Below are positions 7,190 to 62,015 of a DNA stretch of 64,000 nt, in pieces. The translations under genes were made by a program, and so were the position numbers. The notes under the pieces were generated by a model. It saw only the letters and a list, made by a program, of their open reading frames with translations. It had not been told where the DNA came from and ran no database searches. The DNA lies in assembly GCA_022821965.1 (NCBI GenBank), contig JAJECN010000022.1:124001-188000 (forward strand), given 5' to 3'. The DNA comes from Candidatus Poribacteria bacterium. Lineage in GTDB: Bacteria > Poribacteria > WGA-4E > WGA-3G. How positions within the stretch are numbered: the first letter of the stretch is position 1; every line of letters begins with the position of its first letter.

Positions 7190-7678
7190 CTACTGTTTGA
7201 ATGAACGGAGCTTACCCAATTTATCTATTGTGGAGACAAAACCATCACCTTTGTCTATGCCTAAGGCAGCACCGCCTTTTCCAGCTAAAGCCCCCTCTAT
7301 AGGAAAAATGGTTACGCCGCCACCCTCCAGACCAAACGTGAGACTCGCGCCACTGGCGTTTCTATCGGTAACGCCTGCGATTCCACCCAACTGACCGACT
7401 AAGAGAGCAGCCCTATGCGCAACATCCATCCCTCCCGGACCGTAACAGGATACCTGCCCACTAAGTTCATTCCAAGATATAACAACTCGATGCTCCCCAT
7501 TGTCCGCCATCACGGCTATGTCTTCAAGCACGGTTAACTTCCGGACGGTCAACTCATCAATTGTGTCAGATCCAAGTTCTGCTTTCGTATCATTGTTCAT
7601 GTTACCAAGGATAAAGCCTGCAAATGCCAGTAATCCGACTAAAAACATATATTTCAACTTTTCGCGTAATCTCAACAT
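7190..7678 (-). CDS. Membrane-anchored or secreted protein, paralogue of the next gene
   Basis: 162 residues, not recognised. The N-terminus (MLRLREKLKYMFLVGLLAFA) is a basic patch plus one hydrophobic segment, a signal anchor or signal peptide. The next part, TIDELTVRKLTVLEDIAVM, is shared with the neighbour at 7801-8262, followed by short Gly-rich stretches that read like beta repeats (VVISWNELSGQV, GASLTFGLEGGGVTIF). Both genes end in DKLGKLR/DKLGKIN. The Shine-Dalgarno AAGGAG and the flanking leader match the neighbour almost base for base, so the duplication included the leader. Function unknown. Confidence 0.75.
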   Translation of the reverse strand: MLRLREKLKYMFLVGLLAFAGFILGNMNNDTKAELGSDTIDELTVRKLTVLEDIAVMADNGEHRVVISWNELSGQVSCYGPGGMDVAHRAALLVGQLGGIAGVTDRNASGASLTFGLEGGGVTIFPIEGALAGKGGAALGIDKGDGFVSTIDKLGKLRSFKQ

Positions 7679-7732
7679 GATAGATGCTCCTTGTATAAAA
7701 TTGTGTGTTGTCTGAAATCGTTCCTGCTGCTG

Positions 7733-7776
7733 AAAAAAAATCTGCGAGACGATCTCTTGTTTACCAAGAGAAGATC
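7733..7776 (-). terminator. Possible intrinsic terminator between the two paralogues
   Basis: Read on the minus strand, a bulged stem (arms at 7765-7776 and 7751-7759) is followed by a short linker and a run of eight T (7733-7740). It would end transcription of the gene at 7801-8262. The linker between stem and T run is longer than ideal. Confidence 0.4.
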
Positions 7777-7800
7777 AGGCGACCTTTTTATAAAGTTGTT

Positions 7801-8262
7801 TCAATCCAGGGCATTTATTTTTCCAAGTTTATCTCTTGTGTAAACAACCCCGTTTTCTTCGTATATAGCTAATGCAGCAGCACCCGGTCCATTTATGGAA
7901 CGAACGACTACGGTTCCACCATTCTCATTCATTGTGACTTGCGCACCATTTTTTCCTTCTGCGTTGCCAACTTGTATAAGTCCGCCATGTTCACCAACGC
8001 CGAGCGCAGCCTGACCTCTTGGGCTGTGGGCTGATACGTTTCCACCATTTTCATCCCAAGTGATTACAACTTGAGGGACATTGTCGTCGTTAATTACTTT
8101 TATACTCTCAAGTACAATCATATTTCTAACGGTCAGTTCATTAATAGTTTCAGCTCCAGATTGTGCTTCGGTATTCTTGTTCATGTTACCAAATACAAAT
8201 CCTGCTAAGACTATCAACCCTCCCAAAGTCATATATTTCAACTTTTCGCGTAGTCTAAACAT
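7801..8262 (-). CDS. Membrane-anchored or secreted protein, paralogue of the previous gene
   Basis: 153 residues from ATG 8262, chosen because AAGGAGC lies 8 bases upstream and because the N-terminus (MFRLREKLKYMTLGGLIVLA) then matches the neighbour. Shared blocks: the hydrophobic anchor, ETINELTVRNMIVLESIKV, PQVVITWDENGGNV, and the C-terminal RDKLGKINALD. The middle has repeated short strands with Gly turns. I do not recognise the family. The pair most likely arose by tandem duplication; an envelope location is likely. Confidence 0.75.
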   Translation of the reverse strand: MFRLREKLKYMTLGGLIVLAGFVFGNMNKNTEAQSGAETINELTVRNMIVLESIKVINDDNVPQVVITWDENGGNVSAHSPRGQAALGVGEHGGLIQVGNAEGKNGAQVTMNENGGTVVVRSINGPGAAALAIYEENGVVYTRDKLGKINALD

Positions 8263-8368
8263 TATAGATGCTCCTTGTATAAAATTGTGTATAGGTCTGA
8301 TTGTAGTATGCAAACTTTGCTGCTACTTTTCAAAACTATGCCTATGGTTGTATCCATTGGGTTATCCG

Positions 8369-8881
8369 CTAAATGCTATTCAGCATTAGTGCCAAAAAGC
8401 CTAAGTTAGAGGTGATGGAACCTGCGGTGACTAACCTTTTCCGAAGCGATATTGTTTTGGCTCGATAGGCTTGGGTGTAGGCTTCGACATATTCAGCACT
8501 TTTGCCGAGGAGTCGTTCTGGCGGCGGATTTGGATTGTGTGGATATTCAAAAACAGCGGCTGGCACCGCCAAGACACCGAGAAGGAAAGCACCCCCGAGC
8601 AGACAACCCGCTTGTCCGTCACTGGTCACAGGGGAATAGATGAAAAAGTCGGGTGCCGAACCGGGATCCAAGATACCTCCTACGAGACACCCGCCGACAC
8701 AGCCGAGGATACAGCCAGCCGTGCTACTCACCGCACCTAACATGAACCACCTAACTTTTGGCATATCGGAATTCGCATCGGCTTCCGCCTCTGCTTGCAC
8801 GGGACTCTGCTTTGCAAGACTGACGGGCATTGCGCTAAAAAGCAGTAGCGTTGTCATAAGAAGGACAGATATACGGAACAT
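8369..8881 (-). CDS. Secreted/membrane protein, tandem paralogue 1 of 4
   Basis: 170 residues from ATG 8881 (AAGGAG upstream). Signal peptide (about 1-24, ending PVSLAKQ), an Ala/Glu/Asp-rich stretch, then two Gly/Cys-rich hydrophobic segments (SSTAGCILGCVGGCLVGG and AGCLLGGAFLLGVLAVPAAV), then the block most conserved in the four copies: YPHNPNPPPERLLGKSAEYV, a helical AYTQAYRAK segment, and SLRKRLVTAGSITSN, and a last hydrophobic end. This fits an envelope protein with two or three membrane segments. I do not recognise the family. Copies 1 and 3 (MFRIS start) resemble each other more than copies 2 and 4 (MSR start). Confidence 0.75.
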   Translation of the reverse strand: MFRISVLLMTTLLLFSAMPVSLAKQSPVQAEAEADANSDMPKVRWFMLGAVSSTAGCILGCVGGCLVGGILDPGSAPDFFIYSPVTSDGQAGCLLGGAFLLGVLAVPAAVFEYPHNPNPPPERLLGKSAEYVEAYTQAYRAKTISLRKRLVTAGSITSNLGFLALMLNSI

Positions 8882-8907
8882 GAGTATCTCCTTGAGGGAC
8901 TGCGAAT

Positions 8908-9399
8908 TCACAAATTACTGATTATGAGCAGTAGCATCGTACCGGTAATGCCTAAGTTAGAGGAGAGAGAGCCTGCTGTGACCATCTTTCTCCGAAGCGA
9001 GACTGTTTTGGATTTATAGGCTTGGGCGTAAGTCTGAACGTACTCAGGGGATTTGCCAAGCAACCGCTCTGGTGGCGGATTTACGGTGTGCGGATATAGA
9101 TAAACAGCCGCCGGCATTGCCAAGACCCCGAGAACGAGCGTGGCTGGAATGATACAATACGTCGAGTCGTCAACTTCGGTCGCGCCGATGAAACACCCGC
9201 CGACAAAGCCCGTGACAAAACCCGCAGTACTACCCGCCAGTCCGAACATAAACCACCATACTTTTTTCATATCGCGGTCTGCGTCCCTGATGGCATCGGC
9301 ATTCGCGTTTGCTCGTATAAAGTTCTGTTGTGCAAGACTCACAGGTATTGTGCTAAACAGCAGTAGGGCTGCCATGAAAAAGACAGGAAGACGGGACAT
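8908..9399 (-). CDS. Secreted/membrane protein, tandem paralogue 2 of 4
   Basis: 163 residues from ATG 9399, where AAAGGAAA gives a ribosome site; an earlier in-frame start adds 14 residues and has no such site. It has the same plan as its neighbours: signal peptide ending SLAQQ, an acidic AIRDADRDMKKVWW stretch, Gly-rich hydrophobic segment (GSTAGFVTGFVGGCF), second segment (LVLGVLAMPAAVYLYPH), NPPPERLLGKSPEYV, SLRRKMVTAGSLSSN. It has fewer cysteines than copies 1 and 3. Only 26 bp separate it from copy 1, so they are probably co-transcribed. Function unknown. Confidence 0.75.
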   Translation of the reverse strand: MSRLPVFFMAALLLFSTIPVSLAQQNFIRANANADAIRDADRDMKKVWWFMFGLAGSTAGFVTGFVGGCFIGATEVDDSTYCIIPATLVLGVLAMPAAVYLYPHTVNPPPERLLGKSPEYVQTYAQAYKSKTVSLRRKMVTAGSLSSNLGITGTMLLLIISNL

Positions 9400-9512
9400 G
9401 CGGTTTCCTTTTTTATCTCGGTTCTGAGAATAGTACAGCATAAAGCAAAAATCCTCTGATCAAGGCCCTGCGGAACATCGTAGGGGCAGATGTAAATTGC
9501 GTAAGTCCTGCT

Positions 9513-10028
9513 CTAATAGGCATTTGAGAGCAACAGCAGCGTCCCAACCACAAAACCTACATTGCTGGTGATAGACCCTTTCGTTACGATTGATTTTCGA
9601 AGCGAGGCTATTTTCGATTTATAGATTTGGGTATAAGCCTCAATATACTCAGGAGATTTGCCGAGGAGTCGCTCTGGGGGTGGCGTTGCGTTGTGTGGAT
9701 ACATGTGCACACCGATCGGCACTGCCAAGACACCAAAAAGGATAGCACATCCGACAGCACAACCCGCCTCGGAAGGCGTCGGAAAAAAAGACACTCCAGC
9801 CGGGTCCAACCGTGCTCCTAATGCAACCCCCCCGACACAACCGAGGAGGCAACCTGCAGTACTCCCCAATCCACCTAACATAAACCACATAGTTTTTGAC
9901 ATACCCGACATATCGGAAGTCGCATCGGCTTCCGCTTGTGCTTGCACAGAACTCTGTTGCGCAAAACTGACAGGTGTCATGCTGAAAATCAATAAGGTTG
10001 CTATGAGAAGGGCAGATATACGGAACAT
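9513..10028 (-). CDS. Secreted/membrane protein, tandem paralogue 3 of 4
   Basis: 171 residues, ATG 10028 with AAGGAGATG-type ribosome site. Signal peptide ending PVSFAQQ, a Gln/Ala/Glu-rich stretch, the Gly/Cys segment GSTAGCLLGCVGGVALG, a second segment (GCAVGCAILFGVLAVPIGV), then YPHNATPPPERLLGKSPEYI and SLRKSIVTKGSITSN. This is closest to copy 1 in the first half and in its cysteine positions, which suggests duplication of a two-gene unit (MFRIS type plus MSR type). Function unknown. Confidence 0.75.
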   Translation of the reverse strand: MFRISALLIATLLIFSMTPVSFAQQSSVQAQAEADATSDMSGMSKTMWFMLGGLGSTAGCLLGCVGGVALGARLDPAGVSFFPTPSEAGCAVGCAILFGVLAVPIGVHMYPHNATPPPERLLGKSPEYIEAYTQIYKSKIASLRKSIVTKGSITSNVGFVVGTLLLLSNAY

Positions 10029-10082
10029 AGAGCATCTCCTTGGAGGTGTTGCAAATTCGCAAATGGTTTGGTTTTCTAACGG

Positions 10083-10595
10083 CTATCTATTCGTCATATT
10101 ATCCAGCAGTAGCATCGCGCCCATACATAAGTTAGAGGTGAGGGACCCAGCGGTGACCAGCCTTTTGCGAAGCGATACTGTTTTCGATCTATAGGTTTGA
10201 AGGTAGACTTCAATATATTCAGGGGGTTTGCCGAGGAGTCGCTCCAGTGGCGGATTTGGATTATGCGGAAGTATGAAAACAGCGGCTGGCACTGCCAAGA
10301 CCCCGAAAAGGATACTACAACTCAGCATCGCCCTGTCAGAGCCAATACAGTTCGTATCTGAACCAGCATCTATGAACATCCCGAATAAACACCCTCCGAT
10401 ACCGCCAGCGGCACAACCCACACTACTGCTCACCAGTCCTGACATAAACCACCACGCTTTTTTCATATCGTGGTCTGCGTCTCTTATAGCATCGGCTTTC
10501 GCTTGTGCTTGTATAGGGTTCTGTTGTGCGAAACTGACAGGCACTTCGCTAAAAAGCAGTAGTACTGCTATGAAAAAGGTGGCGATACGGGACAT
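10083..10595 (-). CDS. Secreted/membrane protein, tandem paralogue 4 of 4 (first in the row)
   Basis: 170 residues from ATG 10595, preceded by GAGGGAG. Signal peptide ending PVSFAQQ, AIRDADHDMKKAWW as in copy 2, a Gly/Cys hydrophobic segment (GCAAGGIGGCLFG), a second one (CSILFGVLAVPAAVF), PHNPNPPLERLLGKPPEYI, SLRKRLVTAGSLTSN. It is the 5'-most gene of the row, so the promoter for the set probably lies in 10596-10749, which contains a perfect palindrome (10670-10689). Function unknown. Confidence 0.75.
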   Translation of the reverse strand: MSRIATFFIAVLLLFSEVPVSFAQQNPIQAQAKADAIRDADHDMKKAWWFMSGLVSSSVGCAAGGIGGCLFGMFIDAGSDTNCIGSDRAMLSCSILFGVLAVPAAVFILPHNPNPPLERLLGKPPEYIEVYLQTYRSKTVSLRKRLVTAGSLTSNLCMGAMLLLDNMTNR

Positions 10596-10669
10596 GAGAC
10601 TCCCTCTTTTCACTCGGTTCTGGAGATAGTATAGTATATCTCGCAGCTAATAAACATCAGCACTCCAGC

Positions 10670-44886: not shown

Positions 44887-44960
44887 CCAGTAGTAGATGC
44901 TCCCCGCCAATCCAATATATCTATTCCGAGAGAACCTCTATCCCCTTTATATCAGTGCAA

Positions 44961-45042
44961 GGTCATTTAGTTTTCTCTTTTGTAGCGTCCACTTTTAGTT
45001 TGCGCCCTATACAGGCACAGACTAACAGTCTATGCTACAAGG
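44961..45042. repeat. TTGTAGC dispersed repeat, copy 1
   Basis: The 61-bp core at 44980-45040 begins TTGTAGC and ends GCTACAA, and contains CACAGACTAACAGTCTATGC. An inverted copy of almost the same sequence lies at 51409-51469, and the likeness extends ~20 bp on one side. A partial copy is at 47118-47143. Confidence 0.75.
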
Positions 45043-45129
45043 GTTCCCGTGTCTGAACGACAAGGGTTAGTGCTGTACATCAGTGGCTTTTTACTTTACC
45101 CCATTCAATATCCATGCTAAACTGCTACC

Positions 45130-51177: not shown

Positions 51178-51818
51178 TTTTTTAATTTTCCTTATTGGCT
51201 TGCAATGTTAGGTTAAGAAGAGGATAGGAAACCTCGGAAACGTATATTTGGTTCCCTTAACGCCAGAATATCTCATTACTGATACGCTATGATAGCATAT
51301 CTATCTTTAATTTTGCAATCCGATCGATAAATGAGAACAGGACTATTTAATTTTATAGTTTTGGAACTCATTTTCAATAGCCGACCTGCTGCCTGTATAC
51401 TGAGCCCCTTGTAGCATAGACTGTTAGTCTGTGCGTGTATAGGGCGCAAACTAAAAGTTTACGCTACAACAGCGAAAACTAAATGACCCTGTAAATGAGA
51501 ACAGGTATTTATAGTAAACCTACAATTAATTAGACATTGTAAAAGGGCGAGGTTCCAAACCTCGCCAGCGGCGGTGAGGTGTTTTGTGTTTTCCAAAGTG
51601 TTCTTTTATTTTTGCATAAACTATTGAATTTCATAGATGTTTGATTTTCCTCTTTCAGTCCCGGTGCGGTTAGGAAACCGCACCTACCGCGCCTGGGGAG
51701 TCAAAAGTGGACGAAAAACCGAAAACTAAATAGCCCCGAACTATAATCGTAAAAAACTTGCGAAACTCACAGATTAATGTTAATATTATTAAGACTCTCA
51801 TCCCCTGAAAGGTTATTA
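51178..51818. other. Repeat-rich intergenic region
   Basis: No gene seen in 640 bp. It contains, in order, TTGTAGC repeat copy 2 (51407-51488), the AACCTCGCCAGCGGCGG repeat (51558-51585) and a perfect GGTGCGGTT hairpin repeat (51661-51700, with GCGCCTGGGGAGTC). The rest is AT-rich. Confidence 0.65.
51407..51488. repeat. TTGTAGC dispersed repeat, copy 2 (inverted)
   Basis: The inverse of the element at 44961-45042; the core (51409-51469) has the same 61-bp length and differs at a few bases. Bounded by TTGTAGC/GCTACAA. Confidence 0.75.
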
Positions 51819-52620: not shown

Positions 52621-53838
52621 TCAGCCGTGTGCCTTGAGAACCCGTGCAGTCTCACGTGATACGATCAACTCTTCATTCGTAGAAACGATGAGAATCTTCG
52701 TGCGACTGTCATCCGCAGAGAGATCAGTTTCGCCGGTCGCCTGCTCATTTTTCACGGCATCCAAGTGAATACCGCACCACTCAAGTCCCTCGCAGACCTT
52801 CGCGCGTGTTGTCGCGCTTTTCTCTCCGATACCACCAGCGAAAGCAATGACATCCACCCCACCAAGTGCGGCGATATACGCGCCGATATATTTTTTTATA
52901 CCGTAAACGTAAGTATCCAACGCCAAACGGGCATTATCGTTACCTGCTGCGATTGCCGCTTCTACATCACGCATATCTCCACTCGTACCAGAGATGCCTT
53001 TCAGACCGGAATCCTCAATCAACTGACGGCGGATTTCATCTGTAGAGGTTCCCTCTTTGTCGAGCATATACAGCACCGCAAATGCATCCAACTCCCCACA
53101 ACGGGTAGACTGAATCATCCCGTATTGCGTTGACGTTCCCATTGACGTATCGATAGATTCCCCATCCTTAATAGCGCAGAGAGATGAACTCCCGCCGAGG
53201 TGACAAGAGATAATGCGTAATCCTTCTCCTGTTTCCCGTCCAAGCAGCTGCGGTACACGTTCAGAGATGTATCGGTGGGAAGCACCGTGGTAGCCGTACC
53301 GACGGATGTCGTGTTGTTCCATCCAGAAACGAGGCACCCCGAATTCGGCGGCGTAATCCGGGATTGTCTGATGGAACCATGTCTCAAAAACAGCAACGAG
53401 CGGTGTGGTCGGGAGCAATTCTTGAAAGGCACGGATAGACGCGATATAGGCGGGATTGTGCATCGGCGCGAGCGGTGTGGATGTCTCCAGTGCGGTTATC
53501 ACGTCTTCGGTAATCCGTGCTGAACGCCAGTAGCCTCTGGCAAGAATCGTTTTGAAACCGACACCGTCCAATTGTCCCAAATCTTCAAAGCATCCGACTT
53601 CGGGATCGGTAATGAGATCCATGGCGTGCGCGATTGCAGCAATATGTGTTGGGGCATCAATCTCACCTTCGCGGGCAGGTTTGTCCGGTACTGCGTGTGT
53701 GAAGGCAGATGGCGAATTACCGATACGTTCCACGCCTCCCTTGACGAGGGAGGTTGTGGTTTCCATATCAATAATTTGGTATTTGAAGGAGGTGCTTCCT
53801 ACATTGGCACAGAGTATATGCATGGTGATTTTTGGCAT
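52621..53838 (-). CDS. ackA: Acetate/propionate kinase family protein
   Basis: 405 residues. AckA motifs: ILCANVGSTSFKYQI (usual NxGSSSxK), TPLAPMHNPAYI, FETWFHQTIP, GYHGASHRYISERVP, IISCHLGGSSSLCAIKDGES, ID TSMG, IAFAGGIGEKS (adenine site). It makes acetyl- or acyl-phosphate from the acid and ATP, or the reverse. No pta lies nearby. The start is uncertain: ATG at 53838 or 53823. A fragment of its 5' end is repeated at 54273-54371. Confidence 0.88.
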   Translation of the reverse strand: MPKITMHILCANVGSTSFKYQIIDMETTTSLVKGGVERIGNSPSAFTHAVPDKPAREGEIDAPTHIAAIAHAMDLITDPEVGCFEDLGQLDGVGFKTILARGYWRSARITEDVITALETSTPLAPMHNPAYIASIRAFQELLPTTPLVAVFETWFHQTIPDYAAEFGVPRFWMEQHDIRRYGYHGASHRYISERVPQLLGRETGEGLRIISCHLGGSSSLCAIKDGESIDTSMGTSTQYGMIQSTRCGELDAFAVLYMLDKEGTSTDEIRRQLIEDSGLKGISGTSGDMRDVEAAIAAGNDNARLALDTYVYGIKKYIGAYIAALGGVDVIAFAGGIGEKSATTRAKVCEGLEWCGIHLDAVKNEQATGETDLSADDSRTKILIVSTNEELIVSRETARVLKAHG

Positions 53839-53875
53839 CTAACAAGAAAAAATTTACTTGAACTATCGGCTTAAA

Positions 53876-54274
53876 TCAAGATAGGGGCGGTTCAACTACT
53901 TGCTCTACGCCTTTCTCCACAGCTGTGTTTACGTCTGCTCTTTCTTTGCCCTTGGGCTTAAAACGATGGTCTGTGTCTGATATCGGTTCAATCAAGAGCC
54001 GACATCCAAGTGCGTTGAGGATGGTGCTGAGCGTGTCAATTCGCGGTGCTTCGTCGCTGGACAGAATGTCAGAGAGGGATTCTTGAGCGATTCCGGTTTT
54101 CTTGGCGAGTACAGAAATCCCACCTTGTGACTCTACGACAGTCCGAAATGCAAGTAGCAGCAAAGGCGTATCACCGTCAACTTGGTATTCTTCAAGTGAG
54201 AATTTGAGATACCGAATTGCCGCCTCTTGATTGGCAGCAAACCGTTCAGTTAGATATGCTCGCCATGTTCTCAT
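53876..54274 (-). CDS. HigA/TIGR02684-like antitoxin, orphan
   Basis: 132 residues from ATG 54274, chosen because AAGGGG lies 10 bases upstream. Body: TWRAYLTERFAANQEAAIRY, a linker, then a Cro-type HTH (GGISVLAKKTGIAQESLSDI) and TLSTILNALGCRLLIEPIS, the pattern of addiction-module antidotes that normally follow a RelE-like toxin. No toxin gene adjoins it. The ribosome site and first codons lie inside a duplicated ackA fragment. The gene ends 38 bp before ackA. Confidence 0.78.
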   Translation of the reverse strand: MRTWRAYLTERFAANQEAAIRYLKFSLEEYQVDGDTPLLLLAFRTVVESQGGISVLAKKTGIAQESLSDILSSDEAPRIDTLSTILNALGCRLLIEPISDTDHRFKPKGKERADVNTAVEKGVEQVVEPPLS

Positions 54275-54371
54275 ACGTTCCATGCCCCTTGACGAGAGAA
54301 ATTGTGGTTTCCATATCAATAACTGGATATTTGAACGAAGTACTGCCTACATTCACACAGACTACATGCAT
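54273..54371 (-). pseudogene. Duplicated 5' fragment of the acetate kinase gene
   Basis: On the minus strand the bases from ATG 54371 read MHVVCVNVGSTSFKYPVIDM, ETTISLVKGHGTYE, matching the start of the intact ackA (MHILCANVGSTSFKYQIIDM, ETTTSLVKGG). The DNA is highly similar, including GATATGGAAACCACAA and GGAACGTAT. Likeness stops at 54273, where the antitoxin gene takes over. Confidence 0.85.
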
Positions 54372-54425
54372 AGGGTGTTTCTGTCCTTTTTGAAGTCAAT
54401 AGAATGGGCGAGATGGAAAGCAATG

Positions 54426-56306
54426 CTAAATACTAACTCCATTATAAGAAAGAGGTAAAGCATCCCAAGTTCTCCCTTCCAAAAGCCTACCTGTTTTTTT
54501 CTTATTTCGACCACCCCATTGTTTAAAAAAGAAAGGAATTGCAGCTCGCTGACACTGATTTCGAATATCAATTACCCACTTCTCTTGGATAGGACGCGCT
54601 TGGGGCCCAGATTCTCCACCGACAATGACCCAATCTATGTGAGATAAATCAAGGTTTTGGAGTGCTCCTATCAACGGTTCAAGAGAGAGAAATTTAATTT
54701 GAGCACCTGTTTGTCGTAAATGGTCAATGCGGAATGTGTAATCTTGATCTTCAACACTGACTCCCATCCATACATTTTTGGGCCACTGTATTTCACAACT
54801 AAGTTCAGCCAGACGCTCTGATCGCTTTGTGAGCACTTGAAAGTGATGCTGTTCTGCTTTGTTCATCGTGTCAAAGACCTGTAAAATATACTCTAATGGA
54901 ACATCGTCATGGAACAAATCACTCATAGAATTAACAAAGATTAACTGAGGGGTTTTCCATCTCAAAGGAGCATCAAGTAACTCTGGAACAAGCCGCACTT
55001 TATTCAACCATCTTGGTCCTGCTTTAGTCATTTTTGCCAGACCTTCGTAAGCGAAACCCTTCTTTGAAAATCGAGCAGCAATTCGTTCGGCGTAACAGAA
55101 CCGACATCCCTCGGAAACACGGGTACAGCCTCGAACAGGATTCCAAGTCGATTGTGTCCACTCAATTTTGGATTTAGTCGCCATTTTCAGGCTCCCCTTC
55201 GGTGGAAATGTCACCTTGACTTTTGGGCCGAATGTAACCTTACCTTTTCTCTTTTGACGCTTACTTGCTGGTGGTTCGGCTTGGATTTTGCCCTCAATCT
55301 CAAGATTAGTAAGAACGTCCTTATAGTTGTACTCAAGGTACGGTGTTCCGACATTATGCCAATCATAAATTTGCTTCATCGTCATCGTCCTACCAGTAAA
55401 ATTCTCCAACAACATATCAGCTAAATCGTCGAGTGGATTTGAATCCCCAAACAAAAGAGGCTGAGGATTATATTCAAATGAAGCATCCCCTTGCTCTGAG
55501 TCCGTACTTTCTTTAGCCATGATGCGCTTCATTATCTGATACCCCCTTACATGCTTAGAAACGAAGATTAAATGATGGCTTGAACGCCTACCACTCAAGG
55601 ATTTGAAGCAGAACGGTAAAACGTACTGACCTGCTCTCTCTTTAAGCGATTGGCACATTGCTTCAATAATAGATAATTCCCGTTCAAATGGGCGCATATT
55701 CCTCAGTCTGATTCGGAGTTCTTCCGCTTGTTCTTTACCAAAAAGTGCGTTCATACGTTCTATGACAAGTGGATTATCAATGTCCATATTGATACGGTTA
55801 TAGTTAAAGAAAAATATACAATCACAACCCCAATTTTTGACAGTGGAACTGATAAGTTCAAGGGAAAGTCCCTTGTAGCCCCAGGGGTCCACAAAAAACA
55901 GAGTTGGTATTGCTTTCACACGCTCTAAAATCCGAGCTGCTTCTTCATCAACCTCCGTATTTTCAACAATTGGTTTGTTTTCAAGAGCACAGATACCTGG
56001 AATTGAGTCGATAGCATTTTGAAGCGACAGAGCATATTTCGGATTAACGTCGTTAAAGATGCTCACGAGTCTATCCCCTATATTCTTGTCTTCAATTGCC
56101 TTTTCGAGTATAAGAACTGGGGTTGATTTTGATCCGTCTGTGTACCTGCCTGGACCAGCGAAAAAATCTACATAGCCAATTTTGCCTCCCCATCCCTTGA
56201 CCTGTGAAATCATCACTTTCGCCCAAGCCCAGAAGTATTTCCCAACGATGCTCGCCTTAACCTTGGACTGTTCTGTAGGTTTATCATAAAAAGAATTATT
56301 CCGCAC
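54426..56306 (-). CDS. tcmP: Fusion of TcmP (three-Cys-motif partner) with three-Cys DUF5131/Gp37Gp68 protein
   Basis: 626 residues. Residues 1-~345 are TcmP: TEQSKVKASIVGKYFWAWAK, GYVDFFAGPGRYTDG (SAM-like pocket), LFFVDPWGYKGLSLELISST. From M375 the second protein starts as it normally does alone: ATKSKIEWTQSTWNPVRGCT, then C394-x6-C401-x2-C404 (CTRVSEGCRFCYAERIAARF), and LIGALQNLDLSHIDWVIVGG, ESGPQARPI. AAGGGGAG lies before the M375 codon (55184), so a separate product is possible. The two are usually neighbouring genes. Confidence 0.85.
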   Translation of the reverse strand: MRNNSFYDKPTEQSKVKASIVGKYFWAWAKVMISQVKGWGGKIGYVDFFAGPGRYTDGSKSTPVLILEKAIEDKNIGDRLVSIFNDVNPKYALSLQNAIDSIPGICALENKPIVENTEVDEEAARILERVKAIPTLFFVDPWGYKGLSLELISSTVKNWGCDCIFFFNYNRINMDIDNPLVIERMNALFGKEQAEELRIRLRNMRPFERELSIIEAMCQSLKERAGQYVLPFCFKSLSGRRSSHHLIFVSKHVRGYQIMKRIMAKESTDSEQGDASFEYNPQPLLFGDSNPLDDLADMLLENFTGRTMTMKQIYDWHNVGTPYLEYNYKDVLTNLEIEGKIQAEPPASKRQKRKGKVTFGPKVKVTFPPKGSLKMATKSKIEWTQSTWNPVRGCTRVSEGCRFCYAERIAARFSKKGFAYEGLAKMTKAGPRWLNKVRLVPELLDAPLRWKTPQLIFVNSMSDLFHDDVPLEYILQVFDTMNKAEQHHFQVLTKRSERLAELSCEIQWPKNVWMGVSVEDQDYTFRIDHLRQTGAQIKFLSLEPLIGALQNLDLSHIDWVIVGGESGPQARPIQEKWVIDIRNQCQRAAIPFFFKQWGGRNKKKTGRLLEGRTWDALPLSYNGVSI

Positions 56307-56430: not shown

Positions 56431-56579
56431 TAAAAAACGCCGCAATTTAATCAATCTAAGAAAGCTTGTCTATATTCCAGTTAATAGCACGTAGACCTCT
56501 TCTGAAATGAGGAGCGCACCATTACACCTCTCGAAGAAGGTTCAACTGTTTAATTTTCGAGAGCTCAATTAACGGTGTA

Positions 56580-56888
56580 CTATTTGTGACAACTTTCATC
56601 ATCTTGGTTACCCAAAACCTCCATGGCAGTTTCAACTTCAGCTGCTAATTCTTCAGCAGTAACTTCAGCAAAAGGAGAAATTCCAGCCTCAGACATCAAG
56701 TCTGAGAGATCCCACCGAGAAATATCAAGGAGTTTTGCAGCTCTACCAGCACTAATATCCCCGTGCCGAAGGAGCTCAAGTACAAAAGCCTCTTTCGCTT
56801 TACGCTCTGCATCAGTTTTATGTTGCAGAAAACTCTCGTCAATACGGAGTGTGAATGTGAATTGGACTTCAACTTCTGTCTTTGCCAT
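56580..56888 (-). CDS. UPF0175 family protein (antitoxin-like)
   Basis: 102 residues: FTLRIDESFLQHKTDAERKA, FVLELLRHGDISAGRAAKLL, DISRWDLSDLMSEAGISPFA. UPF0175 proteins carry a small HTH-like unit and are commonly encoded beside PIN toxins. No toxin starts directly after it; the PIN gene at 57136 belongs to another pair. Ends QDDESCHK. Confidence 0.78.
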   Translation of the reverse strand: MAKTEVEVQFTFTLRIDESFLQHKTDAERKAKEAFVLELLRHGDISAGRAAKLLDISRWDLSDLMSEAGISPFAEVTAEELAAEVETAMEVLGNQDDESCHK

Positions 56889-58241: not shown

Positions 58242-61200
58242 TCACGCTTTCGGCAGTGTGGGCAAGGTTAAACGCGGACGTTCACCGAAATCGGGGAGTT
58301 GCGGTGGGTTCTCCTCCATCTGTCGGAGGAGTTCTTCAATTGCGCGGTCGAGCTGCGGATCGTTCTCTGTGGTATAGTCTTGTGGACGATAATCCACCTC
58401 AATATCTGGATCCGTGCCGTAGTTCTCAACGTTCCAGCCGACATCAACAAACCAGAAGGAATACTCCGGTTGCGTCGTTCCGCCTCTATCCACGAACATC
58501 TGATGCGGTGAGATACCGATGACACCACCCCACGTCCGCTTCCCGATAAGCAAGCCCAACTCCATGAGTTTGAAACAGTGTGAGAAAATATCGCCATCGG
58601 AACCTGCGTTCTCATTGGTGACAGCCACCATCGGACCCAAGACCGAGGCATCTGGATACGGATGCGGTGTCCCCCATCGTGGCACGTCATATCCAATGCG
58701 ACGACGAGATAACTTCTCTAAAAGCAGCTGCGAAACATGTCCACCTGTATTGTAACGCACATCGACCAACAAACCGGGATAACTTACCTCAGCGAGGAAG
58801 CCACGGTGAAACTCCGCATACCCACTCCGTCCCATGTCCGGAATATGGACATACCCGACCTTACCCTCCGTTTTTTCGTGGACATACCGCCGATTTTTAG
58901 ATACCCACTCGCGATACCGAAGTTCGTTTTCGCTTCCCAATACCTTGAGTGTGACGACGCGTTCTTCGTCATTGTCCGCGCCTCGGAATGTTGCTTGTAC
59001 CTCTTGATTCGCGAGATTCACGAGCAGTTCACCCGGCGAAACGGTTTCACTGACAGGCTGTCCGGCGATAGTGAGTAAAACATCTCCTTCGCGGATATTA
59101 ATCCCGGGCGCATTGAGCGGTGAATCCTTCGTCACCTCCCAGCCATCGCCGCGCGGGATGTGCGTGATGCGATACCCCTTCCGCTCCGCATCGTAGACGA
59201 AATCGGCACCGAGAAACCCCTGCGCGTAATTCGGTGAACTCCGATAATCGCCACCCATTTCATACGCATGCGAGGTACCGAGTTCTCCCTGCATCTCCCA
59301 CATCAAGTCCGAAAATTCACCGCGTGTCGCGATCCGTTCAAGGAGTGGCAGATAGCGTTGATACACATGCTCCCAATCCACATCCGACATATCCTCTGTC
59401 CAGAAGTAATCCCGCTGAAGTCGCCACGCCTCTCGATACATCTGTTGCCATTCGGCTGTCGGAACGACGGAGGCTTTGATACGATTCAGGTCAATCCAAC
59501 CGTTCTGCCGACTCGGGCCGCCCCTGCTCTCAGACTTGGATTCACTCTCAGTCTTTTTCCCCGCCTTGATAACACGTAACCGACTTCCGGTAGAATAAAC
59601 AAGTGTTTTCGCATCACGCGAAAGTTGAAAATCACTAATGCCAGAGACAAGCGTCTCCTTTTTCTGCTCCTTGAAGTCGTAGGCGTGGAGTGCCCCTCTC
59701 GGAGTGCTACTGCCATCATCGTCCTGAGGCGTTTCTTGTACCGGAAACGATGTAAAAATCGCTTTGCCTTCAATACCAGCGATCTGCCCATAACGTCCAT
59801 GCGGATATGGAAACGCGACGACGCGTTGTGTGATACCTTCCACATCTATGGTAATCGGTTCACGTTTATCTTTCTTCTTCTCAGATTTCTCGTCAGATGC
59901 CTTGTCTTTTTCGCCCTGCTTTTCCTCATCTTCTTTATCTTCCTTTTCTTCCTCAAACGGACGAGGCTCTGGCACGAATGGATTGCCCAACGTCTTTTGC
60001 AAGGTCACCAGCAATGGACGCATTGCCGTAGGAAACCCAAGATCGAAGTGGAGCGCGTCGTAGACCGGATTGAACTCACGATAAGAGAGAAAATAGAGAT
60101 ACTTCCCCTCTGGATCCCATGCGGGACCGAAATCGTTGAATTCTGAATCCGTGACGAACCATGTCTCGCCCGTTTCAATCTTGCAGAGTTTGATTGAACG
60201 GGTGGTTTCTGTTGCAGCAAAACTATACGCACACCATTTACCATCCGGCGACCATGCTACATCTTGGATATTGCGATAATGACCTTTGTCGAGTACCCGC
60301 ATCTCTTGTGTCTCTAAATCGATATGCAAAAGTTCAAGACGGTTATTGATAAGAAGTAACTGATCGTTCTCGTTGTCTTCAGTTTGGGGAGCAACCGTAA
60401 GTCGCCGAACATGTCCGATGTCAAGAGCGTCAAGGCGAACAATGTCAGCACTCCCATCGCGGGTGTGGATTTCCAGTGCTTCTTCACCTTCAGCATCAGA
60501 GAGGGTAACGAGACGCTTGCCGTCGTTGAGCCACTGTGTGAAGCGGTAACGAGTTCCACTACGCTCGCCGTGCTGGAGAACCGCCCCCTCCCAATTCGCC
60601 ATCGTGAAGGGTTTCCCTCGAACTGTCAACGCCAAGGCGTGCCCGTCTGGGGTCAGGGCATAATCTTGTAGGTAGCGCGAAGCACTGACGAATTTGCGTT
60701 GTCGCTGGATACGTGGACTGTGGAATTGGACATCAACACGGGCTTCAGTGTCGTTTTCGATCTCATAAACAAACAGATCCGCACCGGCGTGATAGACAAT
60801 CCGTGCGCCATCTGTTTGGGCAGAACGGCAGTAGTAGGTATCCTGATGCGTGTGGCGTTGAATGTCCTCACCGGTAGGAAGACAGGAGTAGATATTACCG
60901 ACACCCTCATGGTCAGAAATAAAATAGATGCGTTCACCGATCCACATTGGTGTTGTGAAATTACTATCCACGGGTGCAAGGGGTTGAAACTCTCCGTCCC
61001 CTTCAATGTCTACCCAGAGTTGTCCTGCTGTGCCGCCGCGGTAGCGTTTCCAGCGTGCGGGTTCTCGTGTCAATCTGCCGAGGACAACACCACCAGCGTC
61101 ACTGAAATCAATATGATTCGCTGGCCCGTAAGACTGACATTGCGGTTCACCGCCATCTGCGCAGATTTTCCATATCCACGGATCAAAAGCTAAACCCGCG

Positions 61201-61511
61201 CTGCTTGAATAGAGAATATCCTTCGCATCGGTATCCCAACCAACAATAGATACATTGCTTCCTTGATAGGTGAGCCGTTTCGCTTCGCCACCGAGGGCAG
61301 GCATGATATATACCTCTGATGGTCCTTCTTCACGTCCTGCAAAAGCGAGCAATTCGCCATCCGGTGATAAGCGTGGTGAACCCGCGGCACCAAGATTCGA
61401 GGTGAGCCGCCAAGCAACACCGCCTTCAACAGGAACTGTCCATAAGTCATCTTCGCACACAAAAACAATGGTATCCTGACAAATTGTTGGTGATCTATAA
61501 TATCCTGACAT
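58242..61511 (-). CDS. Tricorn-like S41 serine protease
   Basis: 1089 residues from ATG 61511 (GGAGGCG upstream). N-terminal beta-propeller with PDG/PEG-type strands (SPRLSPDGELLAFAG, RLTYQG), a second propeller, a Lys/Glu-rich insertion at about residues 525-560, then PDZ and the S41 core. Catalytic residues of tricorn are kept: His in LGTSHAYEMGGDYR, Ser-Asp in NENAGSDGDIFSHCF, Glu in WNVENYGTDPDIEVDYRPQD. It degrades peptides downstream of the proteasome in archaea; no signal peptide is seen. Confidence 0.88.
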   Translation of the reverse strand: MSGYYRSPTICQDTIVFVCEDDLWTVPVEGGVAWRLTSNLGAAGSPRLSPDGELLAFAGREEGPSEVYIMPALGGEAKRLTYQGSNVSIVGWDTDAKDILYSSSAGLAFDPWIWKICADGGEPQCQSYGPANHIDFSDAGGVVLGRLTREPARWKRYRGGTAGQLWVDIEGDGEFQPLAPVDSNFTTPMWIGERIYFISDHEGVGNIYSCLPTGEDIQRHTHQDTYYCRSAQTDGARIVYHAGADLFVYEIENDTEARVDVQFHSPRIQRQRKFVSASRYLQDYALTPDGHALALTVRGKPFTMANWEGAVLQHGERSGTRYRFTQWLNDGKRLVTLSDAEGEEALEIHTRDGSADIVRLDALDIGHVRRLTVAPQTEDNENDQLLLINNRLELLHIDLETQEMRVLDKGHYRNIQDVAWSPDGKWCAYSFAATETTRSIKLCKIETGETWFVTDSEFNDFGPAWDPEGKYLYFLSYREFNPVYDALHFDLGFPTAMRPLLVTLQKTLGNPFVPEPRPFEEEKEDKEDEEKQGEKDKASDEKSEKKKDKREPITIDVEGITQRVVAFPYPHGRYGQIAGIEGKAIFTSFPVQETPQDDDGSSTPRGALHAYDFKEQKKETLVSGISDFQLSRDAKTLVYSTGSRLRVIKAGKKTESESKSESRGGPSRQNGWIDLNRIKASVVPTAEWQQMYREAWRLQRDYFWTEDMSDVDWEHVYQRYLPLLERIATRGEFSDLMWEMQGELGTSHAYEMGGDYRSSPNYAQGFLGADFVYDAERKGYRITHIPRGDGWEVTKDSPLNAPGINIREGDVLLTIAGQPVSETVSPGELLVNLANQEVQATFRGADNDEERVVTLKVLGSENELRYREWVSKNRRYVHEKTEGKVGYVHIPDMGRSGYAEFHRGFLAEVSYPGLLVDVRYNTGGHVSQLLLEKLSRRRIGYDVPRWGTPHPYPDASVLGPMVAVTNENAGSDGDIFSHCFKLMELGLLIGKRTWGGVIGISPHQMFVDRGGTTQPEYSFWFVDVGWNVENYGTDPDIEVDYRPQDYTTENDPQLDRAIEELLRQMEENPPQLPDFGERPRLTLPTLPKA

Positions 61512-62015
61512 TAACGCCTCCATGTTATAGTAGAATCCAAAAATATGTTTACAGTTCGCCAGGGAACAACCCCCCACCGCCGCTGGCGAGGGAGTTTTTG
61601 CTGGGGTGTTTCTTCTAGTATCCTCGCCTTGTGTTGGTGTATAAATAATTACGGACTTTACTGTAAATAGTTGTTCCCTTTACTGGGTAAGGTTTGAAAC
61701 TGCACCATAGGTGTCAATTTTAGGAAAACGCATCATAGCATTCATTGTAGGTTGGGTTGAGCGGAACCCAGAAAAGCGATACGGATAACATAAGCACATT
61801 TCAGGACCCAACGCCGGCATAGAAATCAACGCTATAGCAAAACCCAACGCAAACTTACCACTATATTTCCAGCGTTTCACCCAAAGAGCGTTGGGTTTCA
61901 CTGGGGACTTGAGTCTATAAGCGGGTCTGTTAGGTCCGATGTCCGTTGACATACCAGTATTTGATTTTCAACACCGTTCAACCCAACCTACAATACTACA
62001 AGCGACTCGACCAGC
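61512..62015. other. Intergenic region with a MITE-like element
   Basis: No gene seen in ~500 bp. It carries an inverted copy of the AACCTCGCCAGCGGCGG repeat (61574-61590) and the 251-bp element at 61744-61994. Confidence 0.65.
61744..61994. repeat. 251-bp element with 21-bp inverted ends (MITE-like)
   Basis: ATTGTAGGTTGGGTTGAGCG at 61744-61763 pairs with the complement of 61974-61994, 20 of 21 bases. Several GTTGGGT/ACCCAAC units lie inside. No coding frame of note. Ends of this GTAGGTTGGGTTGAG type are widespread in bacterial non-autonomous repeats. Confidence 0.75.

Follow-up and report, generated by a model that had tools for sequence, protein, structure and literature searches.

An ackA fragment in front of a toxin-less antitoxin gene in Candidatus Poribacteria: probable scar of one-sided recombination between two alleles

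The window analysed here, a stretch of 64,000 nucleotides, belongs to a 5.7 Mb genome (G000) from the Poribacteria, which are sponge symbionts. On its minus strand a TcmP-DUF5131 gene is followed by a fragment of the 5' end of ackA, an HI1420-like antitoxin gene, a 37-nt linker and a complete ackA (Table 1). The true start of ackA is most likely 53823, because the five additional codons read from 53838 are absent in relatives, and this start would therefore place the joint between fragment and antitoxin at ackA codon 34. On profile matches the antitoxin is assigned to PF21716 only: its score against the NCBIfam equivalog TIGR02684 (32.4 bits) falls below the cut-off of 53.7, as does that of the toxin-paired antitoxin of the relative G017 (31.3 bits). 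No solved structure matched either this antitoxin or the HI1419-type toxin in sequence.

Table 1. Features of the ackA locus and of the interval upstream of it (positions in the window).
Feature	Positions	Strand	Basis
ackA, intact acetate kinase gene	52621..53823	-	TIGR00016 354 bits (above cut-off), PF00871; ATG at 53823 common to relatives; longer reading from 53838
Linker, native downstream sequence of the antitoxin module	53839..53875	-	Also follows the antitoxin in G017, G009, G012 and G018
Toxin-less HI1420-like antitoxin (HTH)	53876..54274	-	PF21716 41.9 bits, cut-off 27; probable start 54274, alternative 54283
Joint: new ATG, AT from ackA and G from antitoxin codon 4 (native TTG/CTG)	54272..54274	-	Comparison with ten fragment-free antitoxin starts and G020
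ackA 5' fragment: leader of about 20 nt, ATG at 54371, codons 1-34 with small deletions	54273..54393	-	Repeat and alignments to relatives
AAGGGG, ackA-derived ribosome-site-like sequence, 10 nt before ATG 54274	54285..54290	-	Sequence; AAGGGA in G020; function inferred
Fused TcmP-DUF5131 gene, now left of the fragment	54426..56306	-	Profile matches and PADLOC
First 25 codons of a DUF3368 (PIN-type) toxin, rest lost	56525..56599	-	96% identity to the first 25 residues of the G006 protein; complete in G003, G006 and G020
UPF0175, antitoxin-like partner of DUF3368, without intact toxin	56580..56888	-	PF03683 44.9 bits
Tricorn-type protease gene, conserved left border of the hotspot	58242..61577	-	Pfam; adjoins ackA at 64-169 bp in G041, G016, G023 and G046

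A preliminary description of this DNA had noticed that about 99 bp at 54273-54371 repeat the 5' end of ackA, and these coordinates are exact. The likeness, read on the minus strand, begins about 20 nt upstream of the ATG at 54371 and runs down to 54273, ending in the start region of the antitoxin, as had been described. The alignment that the description had proposed gives 81-83% identity: a direct repeat of 95 nt (53738-53832 against 54286-54380) is 81% identical, and a gapped alignment of the fragment to the 5' end of ackA is 83% identical over 101 nt (E 1.5e-22 in a whole-genome search), which together rule out chance similarity. An assembly chimera is also ruled out, since the identical joint occurs in G020, a separately assembled genome of another species. 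Among the genomes examined these two alone carry the fragment, and the intervals examined held no further pieces of ackA. The fragment of the window is no closer to the ackA of its own genome (84% identity) than to others, that of G017 reaching 87%. Both fragments share a G-to-A change that is absent from 37 of 37 ackA genes, together with a missing base beside it; thus a single event is likelier than two.

To place the fragment in context, the regions upstream of ackA were extracted from congeners (ackA was not found in two of them, G048 and G049). A tricorn-type protease gene lies upstream of ackA in 25 of the 25 genomes where both could be read, and four genomes have 64, 165, 167 or 169 bp between the two genes, others as much as 7258 bp. 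AckA is 89-98% identical within the genus, whereas the DNA directly before its ATG varies among many species, and the contents of the interval vary as well (HI1419-like toxin with HI1420-like antitoxin, UPF0175 with DUF3368, PIN, TcmP-DUF5131). From these comparisons the tricorn-ackA interval, at 64-7258 bp, is a turnover hotspot of toxin-antitoxin modules. A search for mirror-image scars, that is tricorn 3' ends duplicated within the interval, found none.

Twelve genomes carry an HI1420-like antitoxin in this interval. In five of them (G007, G009, G012, G017 and G018) it stands behind an intact toxin of about 112 aa, of RelE/ParE, HI1419 type (TIGR02683, 118.5 bits, cut-off 62.85). The window antitoxin has no such toxin upstream; the toxin is missing. 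All ten antitoxin-bearing genomes other than the window genome and G020 lack the ackA fragment. Because the antitoxin precedes ackA in these ten without any fragment, it need not have jumped into ackA; it is an old resident of the interval.

In both genomes that have the fragment, the ackA part ends in GAACGTAT and continues directly into the antitoxin at GAGAACATGG, which joins ackA codon 34 to antitoxin codon 4. In toxin-paired relatives the native start region of the antitoxin reads AAGGAGACACAACA ATG AGA AAA TTG AGA ACA TGG or a close variant; at the joint the native ribosome site, start and first codons are absent, as is the toxin. Comparing the ackA end with the native AAATTG or AAACTG that precedes GAGAACATGG gives an overlap of 0-1 nt and no extended homology. 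The preliminary description had set a ribosome site and an ATG at this joint, and the DNA that now holds this putative start region does come from the ackA piece. Two in-frame ATGs follow the AAGGGG of the window, one at 54283, which at 1 nt beyond is too close, and one at 54274, 10 nt beyond. The latter is the likelier start, because G020, with the same joint, has ATA at the first position, so that the joint ATG is the ATG start common to both genomes; translation would then begin at 54274, with MRTWRAYL. The ackA-derived AAGGGG of the window and AAGGGA of G020 sit 10-11 nt before it. A promoter scan returned one minus-strand site (54468-54441), and sites were no more numerous than in shuffled sequences.

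The left flank identifies a second allele. In G020 the stretch from -1636 to -711 (counted from the ackA ATG) aligns unbroken with -826 to +100 of G006, covering UPF0175, DUF3368 and the first 100 nt of ackA, and the stretch from -709 to +120 aligns with -710 to +120 of G001, covering the antitoxin, an intervening piece and ackA. The switch between alleles coincides with the joint, the G001 allele beginning at nucleotide 10 of the antitoxin. G020 is thus a two-allele mosaic, the pattern to be expected of one-sided recombination anchored in ackA. Since G020 matches a UPF0175-DUF3368-ackA allele left of the joint, the fragment can be read as the stump of an ackA from a different allele. In the window, TcmP-DUF5131 replaces all of DUF3368 after its first 25 codons. 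Because UPF0175 and the DUF3368 start remain left of the fragment, this side probably derives from the same ancestral UPF0175-DUF3368-ackA arrangement as that of G020. The right flank of the window is G017-like and its left is now TcmP-DUF5131, so later exchanges in this genome must be assumed.

Two observations on this flank may be added. At 56525-56888 the interval holds a second antitoxin-like gene, UPF0175, without a toxin, next to the 25 remaining codons of DUF3368. TcmP and DUF5131 form one 626-aa open reading frame (54426-56306, minus strand), and PADLOC lists proteins that match them as distinct components of a candidate defence system (PDC-M30A and M30B, also PDC-M41B); in G005 no single continuous frame spans the two parts.

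I consider it probable that the fragment was left behind when two alternative tricorn-ackA alleles fused, by recombination that was homologous on the right and illegitimate at the left joint. The first allele would have ended UPF0175 - DUF3368 toxin - ackA and the second HI1419-like toxin - HI1420-like antitoxin - (X) - ackA. In both types ackA lies immediately to the right, which provides long homology on one side. A homologous exchange there would have been paired with an illegitimate joint on the left, at which the antitoxin, from its codon 4 on, came to follow codon 34 of the first ackA. This joint would have cost the module its toxin as well as the native ribosome site and start of the antitoxin, and would have placed an ackA-derived AAGGG and a new ATG before the antitoxin. 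The arriving DNA would have brought its own ackA, and for this reason the gene stayed whole. Since then the antitoxin would have been retained without its toxin while the ackA scrap decays. The anatomy, the common joint, the mosaic, the missing toxin and the coding constraint are direct observations; the recombination pathway, the use of the new start and the reason for retention are the proposed part. Neither an intermediate nor the exact parental alleles were found among the genomes examined.

Other routes to the same anatomy are less likely. A tandem duplication within one allele, in which the segment from antitoxin codon 4 to ackA codon 34 was doubled in a toxin-antitoxin-ackA genome and the first antitoxin copy and the toxin were later replaced, would yield the same joint, and suitable genomes exist (G017 and G007). 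However, it predicts downstream sequence of the antitoxin left of the fragment, where G020 instead shows UPF0175-DUF3368 continuing into ackA with no break, an arrangement also seen in G006 and G003, and it requires the later replacement to end exactly at the leader of the fragment. With the left context belonging to the other allele this route is disfavoured, and I regard it as unlikely. A two-step path, in which the whole region was duplicated so that the alleles stood side by side with two full copies of ackA (a merodiploid) and a deletion from the first ackA into the antitoxin then left the stump, predicts the same mosaic and is identical in outcome to the fusion that I favour. Many toxin genes in the interval have indeed been struck by deletions, but no genome examined has two copies of ackA or a further piece of it in the interval, and this path seems decidedly improbable.

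The preliminary description itself had proposed that the antitoxin was inserted at about codon 33 of ackA, which stayed whole because the insertion carried or rebuilt its 5' end. Parts of this hold, since the joint does lie at about codon 34 and the arriving DNA would have carried its own ackA; nothing, however, points to rebuilding or to a target-duplicating element. Insertion of a mobile antitoxin unit that duplicated or rebuilt the gene start would account for a direct repeat of that start flanking the antitoxin and for the intact ackA, as in insertions with long target duplication, which have been reported for restriction-modification genes. In those insertions too, the acquired gene is bordered by a direct repeat of its target, which itself stays intact. 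Here, however, the repeat is explained by two alleles, each with its ackA, and the joint truncates the gene that was gained. The target is duplicated on both sides, but the comparison with relatives that the description had suggested finds the antitoxin upstream of an intact and unduplicated ackA in ten genomes, five of the relatives still having the toxin in front, which speaks against a lone antitoxin entering ackA. The antitoxin is moreover cut at the joint with its toxin missing, the scanned genes of the interval include no recombinase, and the left context belongs to another allele. I therefore hold such an insertion to be very improbable, and prefer the fusion of two alleles.

Following the fusion, fragment and antitoxin appear to have had different fates. 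The fragments of the window genome and G020 differ at 26% of positions, and that of G020 holds a stop in the ackA frame, whereas the two antitoxins keep open frames along their whole length and differ at 12% (46 of 390). Between the antitoxins dN is 0.051 and dS 0.378, a dN/dS of 0.14 compared with 0.13-0.32 for toxin-paired copies, and of 36 differences, 23 fall in third codon positions (p 2e-4). In the 66 nt that directly follow the joint one site differs. The last 22 nt of the fragment, which include the ribosome site, are identical at 20 positions, as against 54 of 78 for the rest (p 0.053), so better keeping of this end is only suggestive. The antitoxin looks to be kept by selection, and its conservation against the decaying scrap, which serves as a clock, argues for a job without its own toxin; the low dN/dS could also stem from later recombination with toxin-bearing alleles, the antitoxin tree being poorly resolved. 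Neutralisation of related toxins, or gene regulation, would most likely be the reason for retention, both as candidate functions.

Antitoxins without toxins are not confined to this joint. Seven of the twelve HI1420-like antitoxins in the interval have a broken or missing toxin, and a full-length DUF3368 match occurs in only three (G003, G006 and G020) of the 14 genomes with a UPF0175 match there, G042, one of the remainder, being truncated where its contig stops. The converse, an HI1419-like toxin lacking its antitoxin, was not seen. That antitoxins outlive toxins is partly expected, because losing the antitoxin first would be harmful. At other loci of the window genome there are four intact HI1419-like pairs, on contigs C2, C8, C28 and C32, and three further antitoxins without an intact toxin; of the latter, one has a toxin stump fused to it in frame and two retain a native-type ribosome site. 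Capture of a start was not found at any of these seven loci, nor did repeats of the starts of other genes stand out around the antitoxins there. Since intact HI1419-like pairs lie elsewhere in the genome, targets for cross-protection exist, which makes this a candidate role. At two loci, L003 of the window genome (G000:C9:240959-241393) and L041 of G001, the toxin is cut to about 40 residues and lies in frame with the antitoxin, forming a toxin-stump-antitoxin fusion ORF.

The proposed event resembles homology-facilitated illegitimate recombination, described in E. coli (PMC3240628) and in earlier work cited in PMC5361080 (de Vries and Wackernagel 2002; Prudhomme 2002). As in those cases, a homologous anchor on one side, here ackA, is combined with a non-homologous joint on the other and linked foreign DNA is gained, but here the process is deduced from sequence only, with a joint overlap of 0-1 nt. 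Among published cases the closest is in Vibrio cholerae, where orphan immunity genes have accumulated in arrays at T6SS clusters and where the same mode of recombination has been proposed (PMC5361080). There also modules are added beside a conserved anchor, the older toxic gene is lost and the protective gene kept; the present modules, however, are toxin-antitoxin pairs acting inside the cell, and a housekeeping gene serves as the anchor, its stump supplying the start region of the survivor. That the anchor's stump took over this region is what is distinctive here. Compared with the HI1419/HI1420 pair (TIGR02683 / PF21716), the five relatives have the same order of toxin upstream of HTH antitoxin and both family models match, but in the window the toxin is gone, the first codons of the antitoxin are replaced and the cut-off of TIGR02684 is not reached.

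Orphan antitoxins are common (PMC7192599, PMC2701414). For most of them it is hard to say how they arose and whether they are kept for a reason. In the present case the loss of the toxin can be traced to an event that is placed within one or two bases and is common to two species, and the useless scrap of ackA beside the gene provides an internal clock. The mechanisms are ordinary and unusually well resolved, making the locus a clear example of known processes, not a new system, in which a housekeeping gene acts as a handle for swapping neighbouring addiction modules. One might speculate further, as a possible but rather doubtful generalization, that the tricorn-ackA interval is a standing exchange site with ackA as its homologous handle, where modules move from species to species, every replacement tends to destroy the toxin already in place, and the antitoxins that survive are kept as an inherited immunity list with scraps of host genes as start signals.

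Two further repeats were seen in the window. An inverted repeat of 86 nt, 93% complementary, lies at 44958-45043 and 51406-51491, 6.4 kb apart, and possibly represents copies of a small repeated element. At 7524-10638 diverged repeats stand in a tandem array, each unit about 510-630 nt long; they may be a cluster of small paralogous genes.
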